From positions 1-64,000 of the forward strand of contig CALSRU010000012.1 in NCBI GenBank assembly GCA_943788835.1: a stretch of 64,000 bases of DNA, written 5' to 3'. Source of the DNA: an uncultured Pseudomonadales bacterium. Lineage in GTDB: Bacteria > Pseudomonadota > Gammaproteobacteria > Pseudomonadales > UBA7434. Below, piece after piece: positions 48,858 to 57,702 of the stretch. The notes below the pieces were generated by a model that was not told the DNA's origin, did not search any database, and saw only the letters and a program-made list of their open reading frames with translations. The number at the start of each line of letters is the position of its first letter. Within the stretch, counting starts at the first letter, position 1. A program made the translations under genes and the position numbers.

Positions 48858-50033
48858 TCATTCCTTTGCACTTAGCACGGCGATACCTTTTATTTGTGCA
48901 AAAACGTGCTGACCTTCCTGTAGAGATAAATCCTGCAATGATTTACGTGTGATTGCAGCAAGAAGCGTTTGTTCAAAACATTGCATTGTTATTAATGTTT
49001 TATTTTTCTCATCGCATGCGATTTTTGTAATAGTTGCAGGAATGATGTTAAGTATACTGGAATCGCTGGCTTTACTCAGTGCAATGCTCACGTCTTTCGC
49101 ATAAATTCTTAATCGGATAGGCTGTTTTCGGCTTATCTTGGATGATCCTGCCGAGCAATAAATGTCGGGCTGTGTGCCCACGGCGGCGCGTATGAGTCCG
49201 TGAACATCGTCAATAGAGGCTACATGGCCTTCTAAAATGACTCCGCTAGTGTTGGCGCCAAGCGAGGATGCTGAAGTGCTCAGCGCGTTTGCAACTGCTA
49301 TACATTGGCCCGCCTGTCCATTGGTAATAGGAATAACGTCATCGGCTACGCGCATGAGTTCATCAATATTATGGGTGACATATAAGCAGGGTACTTGCGT
49401 AAGCTTGTGAAGTTTTTCCAATGCGGTTAGCGTGCTTTCTCGGCTCTCTTCATCTAATGCGCTAACTGGCTCGTCAAATAGTATCAGATCAGGCTTGGAA
49501 AGAAGCGCCCGGCCAATAGCCACGCGTTGCTGCTCTCCGCCAGATAGTTGCTCCGGAAATAATGAGTATAAGTGCGAAACATTAAACTGTTCTCCAATCG
49601 ATTCGAGCGTGTTCTGGGGCGTTAGGAGCCTACTATTTTTTGTGGCAATCTCTGTGTTTTTATGCGCGCGCTTGATCGCATAAAGAAAATTATCTTTTAC
49701 CGTCAGGTGGGGAAGTAGGGTTGAAGATTGAGTCACATAGGCTATTTTTCGTTTGTGTACTGCCACGGCTGCCCCGCTTTTTTTTAGCCATTGGTTGCCA
49801 TTGAAGGTGATTTGGCTTGGGCAGTTGGGTTTTCTAAAGCCGGCAATCATATTTAATAGAGTACTCTTTCCGCTGCCGGTTGGTCCGTAAATGGCAGTGA
49901 TGCGACGTGCGTCAAATTGAGCGCTGACATTAAGTTTGAATTGGTCTTGTGCGCTGTGTATCTCAACTGTAAGGCCGCAATGCCGGTCTGCTTTTGGCAA
50001 TTTACTAGATGCATGGGATGCTAGCCGACTCAT
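48858..50033 (-). CDS. modC: Molybdate ABC transporter ATP-binding protein ModC
   Basis: The 391-residue protein has Walker A GPTGSGKSTLLNMIAGF, signature LSGGEQQRVAIGRALL, Walker B LILFDEPVSALD and the switch His in YVTHNIDEL. Its C-terminal part (about 280-385) looks like the TOBE/MOP oxyanion-binding domain, which lets molybdate regulate the transporter. It powers molybdate uptake with ModB in the inner membrane. It is downstream of modB with a 35-bp gap. N-terminal residues before VEIHSAQDQFKLNV form a short unconserved leader. Confidence 0.93.
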   Translation of the reverse strand: MSRLASHASSKLPKADRHCGLTVEIHSAQDQFKLNVSAQFDARRITAIYGPTGSGKSTLLNMIAGFRKPNCPSQITFNGNQWLKKSGAAVAVHKRKIAYVTQSSTLLPHLTVKDNFLYAIKRAHKNTEIATKNSRLLTPQNTLESIGEQFNVSHLYSLFPEQLSGGEQQRVAIGRALLSKPDLILFDEPVSALDEESRESTLTALEKLHKLTQVPCLYVTHNIDELMRVADDVIPITNGQAGQCIAVANALSTSASSLGANTSGVILEGHVASIDDVHGLIRAAVGTQPDIYCSAGSSKISRKQPIRLRIYAKDVSIALSKASDSSILNIIPATITKIACDEKNKTLITMQCFEQTLLAAITRKSLQDLSLQEGQHVFAQIKGIAVLSAKE

Positions 50034-50068
50034 GATTTTTCACCTGACGCTATTAAGTAGGAATGTCG

Positions 50069-50785
50069 CTAATATATGGATTTGTTATGTTCAGTTTTTG
50101 CTGTGCCCCGATAATTGCGAAAGCCGGTGCTGTATATAACGATTAAACTAAGGAATGAGAATAATAGCAGTAGGGCGGCAATCGTATGCGCACTACTGTA
50201 ATTAAGCGATTCAACATGATCAAAAAGAACAATGCTCAATACCTGTGTTTCACCAGGAATGCTCCCACCAATCATTAAGACAATGCCAAACTCACCTGCT
50301 GTGTGACAAAAAGCCAATGCTGCGGCTGCTAATGTGGCGCGGCGACTGAGCGGCCAGACGACGCTAAAGAAGCGATCAAGCGGGCTGGCGCCTAGCGACG
50401 CCGCACTAAGCAAAATTATTCTCGGGATTTTTTCATAGCTACTTTGTAGCGGCTGCACGACAAAAGGTAGGGAGTAAATGATAGAGCCGACTACCAATCC
50501 TGAAAATGAGAAGGCTAAGTTGCTACCAAATAATGAACGCCATGTTTGCGCCGCCCAAGTGTTTGGCGCAAAGGCGACAAGCAAATAAAAGCCAATAACC
50601 GTGGGCGGCAGTATCAGTGGTAGGGCAATTAATGCTTCAAAGAAAGGCTTAAGAGCATGGTGGCTGCGGGCCAGCCACCATGCGAGTGGAACACCTAGTA
50701 GCATCAAAAATCCCGTGCTCACCATTGCTAATTTAAAGGTGAGCCAGACGGCTGCAATGTCATTAATAGAGAGGGCTTCAAACAT
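50069..50785 (-). CDS. modB: Molybdate ABC transporter permease ModB
   Basis: This 238-residue polytopic membrane subunit starts with AVWLTFKLAMVSTGFLMLLGVPLAWWLAR in two adjoining pieces. It carries the permease EAA-type loop AASLGASPLDRFFSVVWPLSRR, followed by HTAGEFGIVLMIGGSIPGETQ, which is characteristic of ModB. Five to six hydrophobic segments are visible. It sits between modA (44 bp) and modC (35 bp). Confidence 0.93.
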   Translation of the reverse strand: MFEALSINDIAAVWLTFKLAMVSTGFLMLLGVPLAWWLARSHHALKPFFEALIALPLILPPTVIGFYLLVAFAPNTWAAQTWRSLFGSNLAFSFSGLVVGSIIYSLPFVVQPLQSSYEKIPRIILLSAASLGASPLDRFFSVVWPLSRRATLAAAALAFCHTAGEFGIVLMIGGSIPGETQVLSIVLFDHVESLNYSSAHTIAALLLLFSFLSLIVIYSTGFRNYRGTAKTEHNKSIY

Positions 50786-50829
50786 AAAGGAAAAAAATCA
50801 TTGCTAAAAACTATTTATCAATATTGGTT

Positions 50830-51906
50830 TTATAGTGCTGCATCGCTTGTTTCGTAGCCATTGCGCTCGATAATGGCAGTGCCGATATCTGATTGTATAA
50901 ATTGTAAAAGTTCAAGTGCGTGCTGGTAGGTTTTTTTGCTGGTAGCGTGCATAGGGTGATCTGCGGGTTGAATTCTCTTAAGTTGTATTACCGATTGAGC
51001 GAGTAAACCATGGTATTCGGCAGGGATAAAGCAATATTGATAGGCCATTGCTGATGTTTTTATTCGCAATGCCTGTGACATGCTGAGTATGACACTATCT
51101 GCATCAGTCTTCTCAAACAGCTGTTGAGCGTGCGCAATATTCCTGGCATAGACGATTTTAGTGGGCTCGGCTTCAGTCAGCGAGGGCTGTAATTTATTTA
51201 GAAATACTTGGCTGGCTAGGCCATATGGCGCAGTGCGAGGGTTCGCTATGACAAGGCGCTGTGTATTTGCAAGCAGTTGATTGAGTGCGGCGCGGTGCAG
51301 ATCGGTCGGCATCTTCTCTTGACAAGCTGCAGCTAACTCTGGAGAGAGTTTGTTTTTTGTGACCCATGTGATCTTACCTGTGGCGTAGGTCTGTAAGCTA
51401 GTGGGTATGCCCAAGTTTTCTTGTAATAATAATGTTGGTCTTAGTTGGTCGGCTGCAAAAAATAGGTCATACGGTGCGCCATTGTTTATTTGGCTAAATA
51501 GCAGACCGGTTGCGCCACTCGAAATTTTTATTGCTGGCTGCGACTGGGCTTGCGATGTGTGTGCAAATGCTGTGAGTAATTCCTCAAGGGTATGTTTAAA
51601 GTTTGCGGCCACCGCTATACGCAGGACTACCGGATCTGAGTTAGTTAAATTGCTAAGCGCATTGTCACGGTCGGCATCAACCGTATTGCCAGATACTGAA
51701 TATCTATCGTCGATGCTAGAGGCGTGCGTCAGTAACACACTAGTGGTGATGAAAAAAATCAAAGTGGCGTGAAGCAGTATTGTGTAGATAATCTCGCGAC
51801 CTAGTTGTTGCGGCTGGATAAATGGCTTCGCACAGAGACTGTCTGGATCGGCTCCGGCAGGCAATGTTAACGTATAAAGTGGTTGGAGTCGTACAGCCCG
51901 CACCAC
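50830..51906 (-). CDS. modA: Molybdate-binding periplasmic protein ModA, with odd N-terminal extension
   Basis: The mature part (from about residue 92, VLRIAVAANFKHTLEELL) is a standard ModA: KISSGATGLLFSQINNGAPYDLFF in two pieces holds the oxyanion-binding Ser and Thr, and FAADQLRPTLL and YGLASQVFL follow. The N-terminus is unusual. The open frame starts with GTG codons at 51906, and no ATG occurs before the mature domain. A hydrophobic signal-like segment (TILLHATLIFFITTSVLLTHA) comes only after about 40 residues. Either the signal has a very long n-region or translation starts at a rarer codon within that stretch. About 28 polar residues (SSIDDRYSVSGNTVDADRDN and onward) then separate the signal from the domain. 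It is 20 bp after comF. Confidence 0.88.
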   Translation of the reverse strand: MVRAVRLQPLYTLTLPAGADPDSLCAKPFIQPQQLGREIIYTILLHATLIFFITTSVLLTHASSIDDRYSVSGNTVDADRDNALSNLTNSDPVVLRIAVAANFKHTLEELLTAFAHTSQAQSQPAIKISSGATGLLFSQINNGAPYDLFFAADQLRPTLLLQENLGIPTSLQTYATGKITWVTKNKLSPELAAACQEKMPTDLHRAALNQLLANTQRLVIANPRTAPYGLASQVFLNKLQPSLTEAEPTKIVYARNIAHAQQLFEKTDADSVILSMSQALRIKTSAMAYQYCFIPAEYHGLLAQSVIQLKRIQPADHPMHATSKKTYQHALELLQFIQSDIGTAIIERNGYETSDAAL

Positions 51907-51925: not shown

Positions 51926-52735
51926 TTAATCGGGCGCTGGAGTTCTGGCAAAGCACCAAACTTCACATGAAATAGCACCGGCATCCAGAAGGCTTTGGGC
52001 CGCTGCATTGGCTGTACTGGTTGTTGTGACCACATCATCGAGTAAGGCGACGTGCTTCCCGGTCACCTCGCATGTGGCGGTGAACGCTCCCCGTAAGTTG
52101 CGGGCTCGTTGTCGTCGAGAAAGGCCTTGTTGGGAGTGGGCGTCGCGGAGTCTTTGGCAGGCGTTGACAGCGAGTGGCAGTGACAATTGCCGGCACAGTG
52201 GTTTGCCAATTTCAATTGCCTGATTGAATCCGCGCTGACGTAACCGTCGCCGGTGCAGTGGAACCGGCACGACTAGGTCAACGTGACTGATGGGGATAGC
52301 CGCCCCAGATGGCTTCGAAGGATCGGCGCCATAGAATGTTTTAATGGTTCGCGCCATCTCATCGGCAATAATGCGTGCCGCGGGCAGTTGCATGGAGTGT
52401 TTGAGGCTATTTACTAATCTCGCGCTATGCGATGCGTATACATTGGCTGCTATGCAGCGCTCAAATATAGGTCGTTGGCTAATACACCACGCGCAAAAAA
52501 CCCTACTTGTAGCTCCTGCGGTTAGCGGTAGGGCGCATCGGGCGCAGCTTGAATGCACTGTAAGTCTTTGATTATTCAGTGCTAAGCGGCACTCTTTGCA
52601 CAGTGCTTGGGTCGTTTCGCTGAGGGCATCACAAATGTGACATCGTTCAGGAAGCAGCCACTCAATGCTGTGGCGCGTAAATGTCGCTCCGTAAGCGCGA
52701 ACAAGATGTTTGAACTTCCTGTTAACCATTTTCAT
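51926..52735 (-). CDS. comF: ComF/GntX family phosphoribosyltransferase-like protein
   Basis: The 269-residue protein has an N-terminal pair of zinc-finger-like cysteine clusters (CHICDALSETTQALCKEC and CARCALPL...FCAWC). A type I phosphoribosyltransferase domain ends in the PRPP loop VALLDDVVTTTSTANAAA. ComF-type proteins take part in DNA uptake for transformation, and the E. coli relative GntX in use of DNA as carbon source; the enzyme activity is not established. It is divergent from bioB, the order also known in Pseudomonas. Downstream modA follows after 20 bp and may be co-transcribed. Confidence 0.9.
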   Translation of the reverse strand: MKMVNRKFKHLVRAYGATFTRHSIEWLLPERCHICDALSETTQALCKECRLALNNQRLTVHSSCARCALPLTAGATSRVFCAWCISQRPIFERCIAANVYASHSARLVNSLKHSMQLPAARIIADEMARTIKTFYGADPSKPSGAAIPISHVDLVVPVPLHRRRLRQRGFNQAIEIGKPLCRQLSLPLAVNACQRLRDAHSQQGLSRRQRARNLRGAFTATCEVTGKHVALLDDVVTTTSTANAAAQSLLDAGAISCEVWCFARTPAPD

Positions 52736-52744
52736 CCTTGAAAG

Positions 52745-52772
52745 TTGACAGCAATCTTTAGCGCACTATTAT
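52745..52772 (+). promoter_or_regulatory. Putative sigma-70 promoter of the biotin operon
   Basis: A perfect -35 TTGACA (52745-52750) and TATTAT (52767-52772) are 16 bases apart, 76 bp before the bioB ATG chosen here. The hexamers place the transcription start near 52780, which argues against starting BioB at 52785. I did not find the TTGTAAAC-type BirA operator around it, so repression by biotin is not shown. Confidence 0.55.
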
Positions 52773-52847
52773 ATCTGGCTGGCGATGCCGCGTGAATCCA
52801 TATTCATGGAGTTGAGTGGCTGCAATCATTTTAGAGTAGGTTTTTTT

Positions 52848-54002
52848 ATGAATAAGACCAGTACAGCTGCTACATCAGCAATGACTGAGCACTCGCTTTC
52901 TGCTCCTCAGAAGGCTTCCGCTTCGCGCGGATTATTGCGGCATGATTGGGCAAAGGATGAGATACAGGCACTTTTTGACCTGCCATTCAACGACCTCATA
53001 TTCAAAGCGCATACTGTGCATCGACAAAACTTCGATCCTAATGCGGTGCAGGTGAGCACGCTGCTCTCGATTAAAACCGGTGCTTGCCCGGAAGACTGCG
53101 CTTATTGCCCGCAAAGTACGAGGTACGATACTGGTCTTAGCGTTGAGCAGTTGATGGAGGTAGAAAAAGTTATTAGTCAGGCTGAGGCGGCTAAGCGGGC
53201 GGGCTCAACTCGATTTTGCATGGGGGCCGCATGGCGTTCCCCCAAAGATCGCGACATGCCTGCGGTGCTGGCGATGGTTAAAGGTGTTAAGGATCTAGGT
53301 CTAGAAACCTGTATGACCTTAGGCATGCTCAAGCAAGATCAAGCCAAGGCTTTGGGGGAGGCAGGTCTCGATTATTACAACCATAACCTGGATACATCGC
53401 CCGAATATTATCGCGATATTATTACCACTCGAACTTATCAAGATAGGTTAGATACTTTGCAGCAAGTCCGCGACGCAGGTATTAATGTTTGTGCTGGGGG
53501 TATCGTTGGGATGGGTGAGTCTTCTGCCGATCGTGTCGGTTTTTTACAGCAGCTGGCGAATTTGCCTGAGCACCCGCAAAGTGTTCCCATTAATCAGCTC
53601 GTTAGAGTTGAGGGTACACCGCTGGCTAATTCTGATGACTTTGATAGTTTTGATTTTATAAGAACTTTGGCGGTTGCTCGTATAATGATGCCCGAGTCAC
53701 ATGTTCGACTATCGGCAGGCCGTGAGGAGATGAACCAAGAGATGCAGGCTTTAGCCTTTTTTGTAGGCGCTAATTCAATTTTTTATGGTGAGAAATTACT
53801 TACCACTCCTAACCCTCAGGCCAATGAGGATATGCGCTTGTTTGACAAATTGGGTATTCACCCTGAAGTGCCGAGTGTCGCTGCTGATCGTCACAGCTCA
53901 AATCTTGAAAAATCTGCTGATGCAATGGGAGCGATGTCTAAAAGTGGCCATGCAGTACAGCCACTTTTTTATGATGCGGCAGCTGCGCAAGCGCAGCAAT
54001 AG
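52848..54002 (+). CDS. bioB: Biotin synthase BioB
   Basis: This 384-residue radical SAM enzyme inserts sulfur into dethiobiotin. It has the cluster-binding motif [15 protein letters not shown], the 2Fe-2S region with SAGREEM, and GIVGMGES. The open frame begins at 52785, but the ATG at 52848 has AGTAGG seven bases upstream and lies clear of the promoter. The first ~30 residues form a Ser/Ala/Thr-rich leader before the family core [19 protein letters not shown]. It heads bioB-bioF-bioHC-bioD. Confidence 0.96.
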
Positions 54003-54078: not shown

Positions 54079-55269
54079 GTGGGTAACTGGCTAGGTCAGC
54101 TTGCGCCGCAGTTGCAGCAAGCACAAAGTACAGATGCTTATCGGCGCCGTCGAGAGATAAATTCAGCGCAAGGTCCTTCGGTCTCAGTGGACGGTCGACG
54201 CATGCTGAATTTTTCTAGCAATGATTATTTGGCCTTGGCCAATCACCCTCAAGTGGTTGAAGCCTTTACTGATGCCGCTGGTCGCTATGGCGTTGGGTCA
54301 GGCGCTTCTCACTTGGTTGTTGGTCATCATGCCCTCCACCATCAGTTAGAGTGCGCGTTAGCAGATTACACCGGGCGTCAGCGAGCGTTAGTTTTTTCTA
54401 GTGGCTACATGGCTAATCTAGGCTTGCTGCAGGCATTGCTTGGTAAGGGCGATAGCCTGTTTCAGGACAAGCTTAATCATGCATCATTGATCGATGGGGG
54501 TTTGGCATGTGGTGCCAAACAGTTGCGCTATCGCCATAAAGACATTGAGCATTTAGAGTCATTGTTGCAAAAGCATGGGCAAGGTCGCGCTATGCTAGTG
54601 ACTGACGGCGTCTTTAGCATGGATGGTGATCTTGCTCCATTGGCGCAACTCGCAACATTGGCCGACCGTTATAAAGCAGTATTGATGGTCGATGATGCGC
54701 ATGGATTCGGCGTGCTTGGTGAGACCGGTGCGGGCAGCGCTCAATACGCCCATCTCAATCAGCATCAGGTTCCCATATTGATGGGCACGCTGGGTAAGGC
54801 TTTGGGTGTTGCTGGCGCATTTATTGCGGGCAGTAATGACCTTATTGAAACGTTGGTTCAGTCGGCACGTAATTATACATACACTACTGCGCTCCCCGCT
54901 GCATGCGCTGCCGCGACGTTGGCAGCATTGCGTATTAGTCGCAGTGAGCCTCAGCGACGTGAGCATTTGCAAAGTTTGCTTAAGCAATTCAAAAGTGGTT
55001 GTCAAAGCCGAGGCATTCCGCTGCCAGTTGGTGAGGCACCCCTGACGCCTATTGTGCCAATCATCGTGGGCAGTAACCAGCGTGCTCTGGCGTTATCAAA
55101 TTATCTTGGTCGGCACGATATGTTAGCGATAGCCATTCGTCCACCAACTGTACCGGTAGGGAGTGCGCGCTTACGGATCAGTTTCTCGGCTGGCCATTCT
55201 GCCGATGATGTTACCGCTTTAATTAATGTGCTCGAGAGTGGTTGTAAAGAAATAGGTGCGTTGCTTTGA
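54079..55269 (+). CDS. bioF: 8-Amino-7-oxononanoate synthase BioF
   Basis: This 396-residue PLP enzyme condenses pimeloyl-ACP with alanine. Motifs include FSSNDYLALANHPQV, GSGASHLVVGHHALH, DGVFSMDGDLAPL, VDDAHGFGVLG and GTLGKALGVAGAF, in which the Lys binds PLP. The start is a GTG at 54079, giving GNWLGQLAPQLQQAQ, the usual family start. It is 76 bp after bioB. The Ala transaminase BioA is not in the window. Confidence 0.96.
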   Translation: MGNWLGQLAPQLQQAQSTDAYRRRREINSAQGPSVSVDGRRMLNFSSNDYLALANHPQVVEAFTDAAGRYGVGSGASHLVVGHHALHHQLECALADYTGRQRALVFSSGYMANLGLLQALLGKGDSLFQDKLNHASLIDGGLACGAKQLRYRHKDIEHLESLLQKHGQGRAMLVTDGVFSMDGDLAPLAQLATLADRYKAVLMVDDAHGFGVLGETGAGSAQYAHLNQHQVPILMGTLGKALGVAGAFIAGSNDLIETLVQSARNYTYTTALPAACAAATLAALRISRSEPQRREHLQSLLKQFKSGCQSRGIPLPVGEAPLTPIVPIIVGSNQRALALSNYLGRHDMLAIAIRPPTVPVGSARLRISFSAGHSADDVTALINVLESGCKEIGALL

Positions 55270-55325: not shown

Positions 55326-57008
55326 ATGATGCGCTTGAACTATAACGATTCCAATAATAACAGCAAGCCTGCTTTGCTGTTATTACATGGCTGGGCTTCA
55401 AGCAGTCAAATTTGGTCGGGGATTACTGGAAGCCTTGCCGAACATTTTAGTATTTACATGCTTGATTTACCCGGCCATGGTGTCAATGCTGATATGCAAT
55501 GCGCGACAGTTGATAAGTTTTGTGAATGCTTTCACCTTGATGTAGAGCCGCTTTTACCCTCTGAATATTTTCTTCTTGGTTGGTCTCTTGGCGGATCTTT
55601 GGCAAGCTTATTGGCGCTGCAGACTAGTCGAGTTAAAGCATTAATTACGGTAGCTAGTAACCCCGTTTTTGTAGCAAAAGAAGCGGGCGGTCAGGGGATG
55701 TCTCCTGCTGTATTTGGCCAGTTTCAACAAGATTTTCATGTCAATGCGCAGTCTGCGTTACAGCGATTTGTTATGTTGCAAACTCGCGGTTCTGCGACTT
55801 CCCGAGCTGACATGCGTTGGATTAAAAGTCAGTCCGGCGTCTCGCTATCTGATCCATCTGGAGTGAGTAGTGCTTTGCAGTGGTTGGCCGATCTTGATGT
55901 TTTGAGCTGTTACCGTGATCTAAATATTCCTGTTATGCATTACCTAGGTATGCATGATGCACTGGTGCCGGCAGCGCTTGCTGGCCAGTTGGCAAAGTCT
56001 TTTTCAACACATAAAGTTCGGTGTTTTTCACACTCGGGGCATGTACCGTTTATTAGTGAGCGTTCTTTGTGGCTCAAGTATATTGTTAGTGACCTTCACG
56101 CTTTGGTTAAAGAGGTGTCTGATGGTGGTGGTCTATCGAGATTCCCCGCCGTGACGGTAGATTCTCATGCGACTAACGATGCAGAAATTATCGATAAGCG
56201 CTCAGTAGCGCGAGCCTTTTCACGAGCAGCTACTGCTTACGATTCAATAGCCTGCTTGCAAAAAGATGTGGGTGAGGGCTTGTTGAAACTTATTGATAAT
56301 GGTCAGCACGGGTCTAGTGCGGGGAATATCTCCATACTAGATCTTGGATCGGGCACTGGTTATTTTTCTCGGAAAATAAAGTCTGAGCGAGATGAGAGCT
56401 CTATAATAGAGCTCGATTTGTCGGCTGGAATGCTCCACGAAAGTCGGCGTGTTTCATCCCAGCTTAAATTAATTGAGCCTGCACTCGTGCAAGCTGATTT
56501 TGAGCGGCTGCCTTTTAAGTCAAAGTCATTCGATCGGATTTTTGCTAATTTGTCATTGCAGTGGTGCTCAGATTTTGCGAGTGCAATCCGAGCATTGTAT
56601 ACGCTTGTTTGTGTTGATGGCGTGTTAGCGTTCACAACCTTGCTAGATGGATCGCTGTATGCATTTCGCAGAGCTGGTGTTGCGCTTGATGATGCGCCGC
56701 ATGTCAATAATTTTTATAGCGAAGAGCAGTTGCTTCATTGTGTCCGGCAATCGCTATTCGGACTAGTCGAATGGGAAGTGGTAGATCATATTGAAACGTT
56801 CGATACGGTTAAAGACATGTTAGTCAGTGTCAAGGGTATTGGAGCCGGCAATCATAGGCGTGATAGAGCGCCTGGTTTGATGGGTAGAGATCGCTATAAA
56901 AAATTCTGCGAGGCTTTAGAATTAACAAGGAATGCATCAGGTCAACTTGAGTTAAATTATCGAATTTTGAGTGCGGTTTTGCACAGAGAAGCTAGGATGG
57001 GTCGTTAG
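55326..57008 (+). CDS. BioH-BioC fusion: pimeloyl-ACP methyl ester esterase plus malonyl-ACP methyltransferase
   Basis: Two biotin enzymes are joined in one 560-residue frame. Residues 1-260 are a BioH-type alpha/beta hydrolase with nucleophile Ser87 in GWSLGG, Asp211 in MHDALVP and His239 in GHVPFIS. Residues 290-560 are a BioC-type methyltransferase (KRSVARAFSRAATAYDS, SAM motif ILDLGSGTGYFS at 337-348, then NLSLQWC). BioC methylates malonyl-ACP so that fatty-acid synthesis can build the pimelate chain, and BioH removes the ester at the end. The 30-residue Ser/Gly/Asp-rich linker holds no stop or start signal. In most relatives bioH and bioC are separate neighbouring genes in this order. 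Such fusions are known in some bacteria. Confidence 0.93.
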   Translation: MMRLNYNDSNNNSKPALLLLHGWASSSQIWSGITGSLAEHFSIYMLDLPGHGVNADMQCATVDKFCECFHLDVEPLLPSEYFLLGWSLGGSLASLLALQTSRVKALITVASNPVFVAKEAGGQGMSPAVFGQFQQDFHVNAQSALQRFVMLQTRGSATSRADMRWIKSQSGVSLSDPSGVSSALQWLADLDVLSCYRDLNIPVMHYLGMHDALVPAALAGQLAKSFSTHKVRCFSHSGHVPFISERSLWLKYIVSDLHALVKEVSDGGGLSRFPAVTVDSHATNDAEIIDKRSVARAFSRAATAYDSIACLQKDVGEGLLKLIDNGQHGSSAGNISILDLGSGTGYFSRKIKSERDESSIIELDLSAGMLHESRRVSSQLKLIEPALVQADFERLPFKSKSFDRIFANLSLQWCSDFASAIRALYTLVCVDGVLAFTTLLDGSLYAFRRAGVALDDAPHVNNFYSEEQLLHCVRQSLFGLVEWEVVDHIETFDTVKDMLVSVKGIGAGNHRRDRAPGLMGRDRYKKFCEALELTRNASGQLELNYRILSAVLHREARMGR

Positions 57009-57009
57009 A

Positions 57010-57702
57010 ATGTGTGCCGCGAAGGTGTTATTTATTACAGGAACTGATACTGATGTTGGGAAAACCGTCGTTGCCTGCGGCTTGCTTAGTGCCTTCAATC
57101 AGGCGGGATACACAACCGCCGCGCTTAAGCCAGTTGCGGCTGGAGCTGAGCAGATAGGAGCGACATTAATAAACGCTGACGCTGAGAATTTGCAGCATTT
57201 TGCAAGTGTTAGTTTACCCTATGGAGCGGTCAATCCTTACGTATTTCCTGATGCTGTGGCTCCGCACATCGCGGCTGATAATCGGGGTCAAGTACTCACT
57301 GTAGCGAAGCTCAAAGAGGCCTCGCAGGCTGCCCTGCGGGCGCATGCGGATTATCTGGTGGTCGAAGGGGCTGGTGGCTGGCTAGTGCCATTGAATGAGC
57401 AGGAAACACTTGCTGATTTTGCCATGACGATCACCGCTGAGGTTATTTTGGTGGTGGGCTTGAAGTTGGGCTGCATCAATCATGCACTGCTAAGTGAGCA
57501 GGCAGTCAGAGCCTCTGGTCTGAAGGTGGTTGGTTGGGTAGCGAATCATATAAGCCCCGCTATGCCAGAGAGTGCTGCTAATGTAGAGGCATTACGCACT
57601 CACCTTGCGGCACCATTATTGGGTGAGGTGGCTTATATGCCTGAGGCCGATAGTACGGCCATAGGGGCTAGCCTTGACCTCTCCAGTTTGATAAGTGCCT
57701 AA
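57010..57702 (+). CDS. bioD: Dethiobiotin synthetase BioD
   Basis: This 230-residue ATP-dependent enzyme closes the ureido ring from 7,8-diaminopelargonate and CO2. It has FITGTDTDVGKTVVACGLL with the P-loop, the LKPVAAG substrate segment, and VVEGAGGWLVPL. The ATG at 57010, one base after the stop of the BioH-BioC gene, gives the correct N-terminus; the frame is open further upstream only by overlap with that gene. It is the last gene of the biotin operon. Confidence 0.96.
   Translation: MCAAKVLFITGTDTDVGKTVVACGLLSAFNQAGYTTAALKPVAAGAEQIGATLINADAENLQHFASVSLPYGAVNPYVFPDAVAPHIAADNRGQVLTVAKLKEASQAALRAHADYLVVEGAGGWLVPLNEQETLADFAMTITAEVILVVGLKLGCINHALLSEQAVRASGLKVVGWVANHISPAMPESAANVEALRTHLAAPLLGEVAYMPEADSTAIGASLDLSSLISA

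Follow-up and report, generated by a model that had tools for sequence, protein, structure and literature searches.

A BioH-BioC fusion gene in the biotin operon of an uncultured Pseudomonadales bacterium and its relatives

In the synthesis of biotin (vitamin B7), malonyl-ACP is first capped as a methyl ester by BioC and then lengthened through two rounds of fatty acid synthesis, after which BioH takes the cap off. Operons of the Pseudomonas type (bioBFHCD) share the gene order of the locus described here and, by homology, the reactions; in them BioH and BioC are separate proteins, as in the 89 unfused pairs of our tree set, each of which occupies two open frames. UniProt entries called 'Biotin biosynthesis bifunctional protein BioHC' presumably represent the fused form, with the same name and domain order.

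BioHC fusions have been named in Cellvibrio japonicus (CJA_0428, 502 aa) and Saccharophagus degradans (Sde_3137, 558 aa), where bioHC is presented as a fourth form of the BioC-BioH arrangement (PMC9894557). Judged by this description, they combine the same two enzymes in one gene within a Pseudomonas-like operon (bioBFHCD), albeit in organisms other than ours. Since that paper already names bioHC in two other organisms, the BioHC fusion is not new; the same kind is described in other bacteria, and finding one is by itself an ordinary annotation of a known fusion. The available portion of the paper describes no functional test of the two fusions, and our search of open-licence literature, with subscription journals mostly outside it, yielded no functional study of any BioHC fusion. 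The bioHCA of PMC6505512 was considered as a further fusion and rejected, as it denotes a gene set in the available text.

The experimental counterpart is the BioG-BioC fusion of Bacteroides fragilis, which could stand in for bioH as well as bioC in E. coli (PMC3494674). In it, likewise, an esterase and BioC share a single chain, separated by a short linker of 10 residues, but its esterase is BioG, regarded by its authors as evolutionarily distinct from BioH. The same source raises a small puzzle, namely that an esterase-BioC fusion joins non-consecutive steps of the pathway unless one presupposes fatty acid synthesis.

The bioHC gene and its operon

The window, a stretch of 64,000 nucleotides from contig CALSRU010000012.1, contains a single uninterrupted open reading frame of 560 codons (560 aa), while the minus strand opposite it is broken by stops throughout. 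We read this gene as coding for a bifunctional BioHC protein, which would have arisen by loss of the bioH stop codon within a bioB-F-H-C-D operon, and assign this reading a probability of about 0.93. The features of the gene are as follows.

55326 to 57008, plus strand: bioHC, BioH-BioC fusion of 560 aa, from the open reading frame and NCBIfam and PDB matches
55362 to 56069, plus strand: BioH esterase half, residues 13-248, with the triad S87, D211 and H239, from an HMM of fetched relatives
56070 to 56189, plus strand: 40-residue linker (249-288) that separates one domain match from the other
56190 to 56981, plus strand: BioC malonyl-ACP O-methyltransferase half, residues 289-552, from an HMM of fetched relatives

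The first-pass annotation had proposed BioH and BioC in one protein in the order esterase-methyltransferase, and the open frame and domain matches bear this out: both domains lie in one frame, with BioH first. The C-terminal half matches the NCBIfam model of BioC (TIGR02072) at 188.5 bits, over the cut-off of 184.95. The N-terminal half has BioH chains as its best PDB matches, i.e., 4nmw (E 1.8e-37), 6k5e and 1m33 (1.9e-34), and bioH (TIGR01738) as its best NCBIfam model. As that match scores 161 bits, under the cut-off of 206.95, we describe this half as a probable functional equivalent of BioH with BioH as its closest relative, and do not claim that it belongs to the family as the curated model delimits it. 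Assignment of the protein to the BioG-BioC type was rejected, given that its esterase half is matched best by BioH in both NCBIfam and PDB. The two halves are presumably separately folded enzymes joined by a short variable linker; their independent folding is argued from homology, because the structure model, predicted from two sequences, is poor (mean pLDDT 30.1) and was set aside.

The gene lies in the order bioB-bioF-bioHC-bioD, in which the names bioB, bioF and bioD come from inspection of the translated sequences.

52745 to 52772, plus strand: sigma-70-like promoter match (11/12) before bioB, a consensus match only
52785 to 54002, plus strand: bioB, biotin synthase, read from the translation; the true start is possibly further in
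54079 to 55269, plus strand: gene between bioB and bioHC, in the bioF place of the operon, read from the translation
57010 to 57702, plus strand: bioD, dethiobiotin synthetase, read from the translation; its ATG comes right after the bioHC stop

Sigma-70-like sites number 10 in the region, against a mean of 7.1 in shuffled sequences. A strict pattern detected no BirA box, which says little because of that strictness. Divergent from bioB lies a comF-like gene (51926-52735), and three molybdate ABC transporter-like genes (ATPase, permease and binding protein) occupy the minus strand at 48858-51906, all named by translation.

Active sites, predicted function and alternative readings

The residues of both active sites are present, so that the earlier suggestion of two apparently intact sites is upheld. 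The window protein has the Ser-Asp-His triad at the BioH positions, and these positions (S87, D211, H239) are Ser, Asp and His in all 64 fused proteins, while the tryptophan W23 is kept in 62 of them. In the BioC half, D339, G341, G345, D364, Y305, Q412, W413, L444, F463 and G506 are conserved in 64/64 fused proteins, D391 in 63 and K503 in 62, a tally that leaves out the second glycine of motif I. We also inspected four positions that we take to hold the arginines through which E. coli BioH contacts ACP, placed by the alignment from the PDB match. The window protein has Arg at three (R147, R160, R164) and Ser at the remaining one (S143); Arg is found at the four positions in 9, 57, 42 and 29 of the 64 fused proteins, and among the 89 unfused proteins it is the commonest residue at the last three.

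With its signature residues intact, the BioC half is predicted to carry out SAM-dependent methylation of malonyl-ACP. Acting on the free carboxyl, it would make the product acceptable as a primer for fatty acid synthesis; once the chain had been elongated twice, pimeloyl-ACP methyl ester would be demethylated by the BioH half, leaving BioF, BioA, BioD and BioB to complete biotin. Both activities are ascribed to the protein from its families and by analogy with the tested BioG-BioC fusion, and on this footing the fusion very probably works.

The fusion is probably also the sole source of both activities in the genome, because neither a second BioC nor a convincing second BioH was detected, and bioA is present elsewhere in the genome (587 bits, over cut-off, on a different contig). 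The fusion alone exceeds the cut-off of the BioC model, the next match in the genome reaching 51 bits; it is again the best match to the BioH model, at 163.5 bits and under cut-off, followed by an alpha/beta hydrolase (C15:78054-78785) at 77.7 bits. A search of the genome with the whole protein gives a next match of E 5.6e-9 and 26% identity.

As for what the fusion might contribute, a 1:1 ratio of BioH to BioC has been proposed to avoid waste (PMC9894557). That the tether does more than fix this dose, by keeping the first and last enzymes of pimelate synthesis together close to the acyl carrier protein and so setting the timing of cap removal, and that such an advantage fixed the fusion in many families of the order, perhaps in more than one event, seems unlikely to us. 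The first-pass annotation had pointed out that premature demethylation must be avoided; nothing in the sequence shows that the joining of the enzymes achieves this, and the guard is likely the chain-length preference of the esterase rather than the fusion.

Two other readings of the protein are less probable still. One half could be a relic, a working BioC being attached to a dead or repurposed esterase domain while another hydrolase demethylates. The below-threshold NCBIfam score of the BioH half is in keeping with this, as is the BioH-like hydrolase of 77.7 bits, which could in principle be the source of the esterase activity. Yet the triad is intact in all 64 fused proteins, and between the window protein and L005, a relative from a Pseudomonadales MAG contig (84–85% identical over residues 1-558), the BioH half differs at 40 silent and 33 amino-acid-changing codons of 250, as under selection, which leaves the relic highly improbable. 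Equally improbable is that free BioC is also made from a start inside the fused gene, the fusion then being partial. In-frame TTG and GTG codons do occur in the linker region, but none of the window's three candidate codons is accompanied by a Shine-Dalgarno match, and such matched junction starts are found in 10/64 fused genes versus 91/384 control regions; with no enrichment over control regions inside the same genes, we rejected an internal start. We thus retain a bifunctional BioHC as the preferred reading.

Distribution, authenticity and origin of the fusion

Compared codon by codon with L005, the window gene shows no gaps over its 560 codons. Substitutions at first, second and third codon positions number 22, 11 and 51 in BioH (residues 1-250), 6, 8 and 12 in the linker (251-290) and 25, 18 and 46 in BioC (291-560); third positions thus vary most, a pattern plain in the two enzyme halves but less distinct in the linker, which changes faster (13/40 residues differ) and keeps the frame. 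L007 (G003) gave the same match on a contig of equal length and was hence counted with L005 as one observation. The fusion occurs in 10 of 12 same-genus genomes, our own included, the other two being 70% and 73% complete.

At the level of the order, the search covered 245 genomes and gave a match in 190, of which 67 carry the fusion, distributed over 12 family codes (f1, f8, f11, f13, f15, f20, f26, f27, f28, f37, f38 and f43). Fetched loci were read for 128 of the 190 and gave 60 fused cases, i.e., the 63 fused loci of the order minus G005, G008 and G010, which came from the same-genus search only. The other 62 gave seven, six by sequence and one (G086) by table rows that place both halves in one frame of 561 residues; ten of these 62 are represented by table rows with no fetched locus, where any fusion beyond G086 would be visible only in the rows. 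A search of the class (276 genomes, 227 with a match) revealed, among 30 loci, one fusion outside the order, L067. From one domain match to the next, linkers measure 13–40 residues (median 21), with the maximum of 40 in the window protein and its close relative. In L089 (G057), L189 (G132), L057 and L094 the fused frames extend far 5' of BioH, with up to 910 codons open, so that these proteins may have an additional N-terminal part or a true start close to BioH.

We conclude that the fusion is real and a sequencing error very unlikely, since a relative 84–85% identical keeps the frame and 10/12 same-genus genomes are fused; the first-pass annotation had asked for confirmation that the linker contains no stop, which is borne out, and its caveat of an error hiding a stop near codons 262-290 finds no support. 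An assembly or sequencing artefact masking a stop that would divide the frame into distinct bioH and bioC genes, conceivable in a draft genome of 17 contigs, was dismissed as having a next to negligible chance, for independent assemblies with the same frame, gap-free against L005 and recurring in the genus and in 67 of the 190 matched genomes of the order, practically refute it.

One apparent exception concerns G008, a same-genus draft genome 78% complete which, besides the fusion, has a separate bioH-bioC pair (L024/L029) on another contig (C67, 3,261 bases). The pair groups with L069 (G362), from a genome that belongs to the class yet is absent from the order list. Given the small contig, the incomplete genome, the fusion elsewhere in it and this grouping outside the order, we did not accept the pair as genuine and read it as probable contamination.

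In the tree set, every one of the 89 unfused pairs has bioH immediately upstream of bioC and in the same orientation, and the median distance separating the bioH stop from the beginning of the BioC domain is 20 nt. With this arrangement, a fusion needs only one lost stop and matched frames, and the initial explanation of the fusion by the proximity of bioH and bioC in gammaproteobacterial operons fits. A quick tree of the joined domains (153 rows) requires five changes between the fused and unfused states, of which starred branches force two, and a tree of 66 rows again requires five, with one forced. For the latter, eight partial, very divergent or suspect rows were dropped, and then those beyond 2–6 per family code and state. 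In an AU test on 35 rows, obtained by dropping eight more long or odd rows and then those beyond 1–3 per group, a single clade of all fused rows was not rejected (p-AU 0.391). We claim neither a single nor a multiple origin, since the trees require five changes but the test is compatible with one clade. The wide spread of BioHC in the order in any case provides many natural fused and unfused pairs on which an effect of the tether on biotin yield or esterase specificity could be tested.

Most members of the unfused family f34 (L101, L106, L109 and others) nest among fused families in the trees of the joined domains, with weak to moderate support, and they possibly represent fission of a fused gene.
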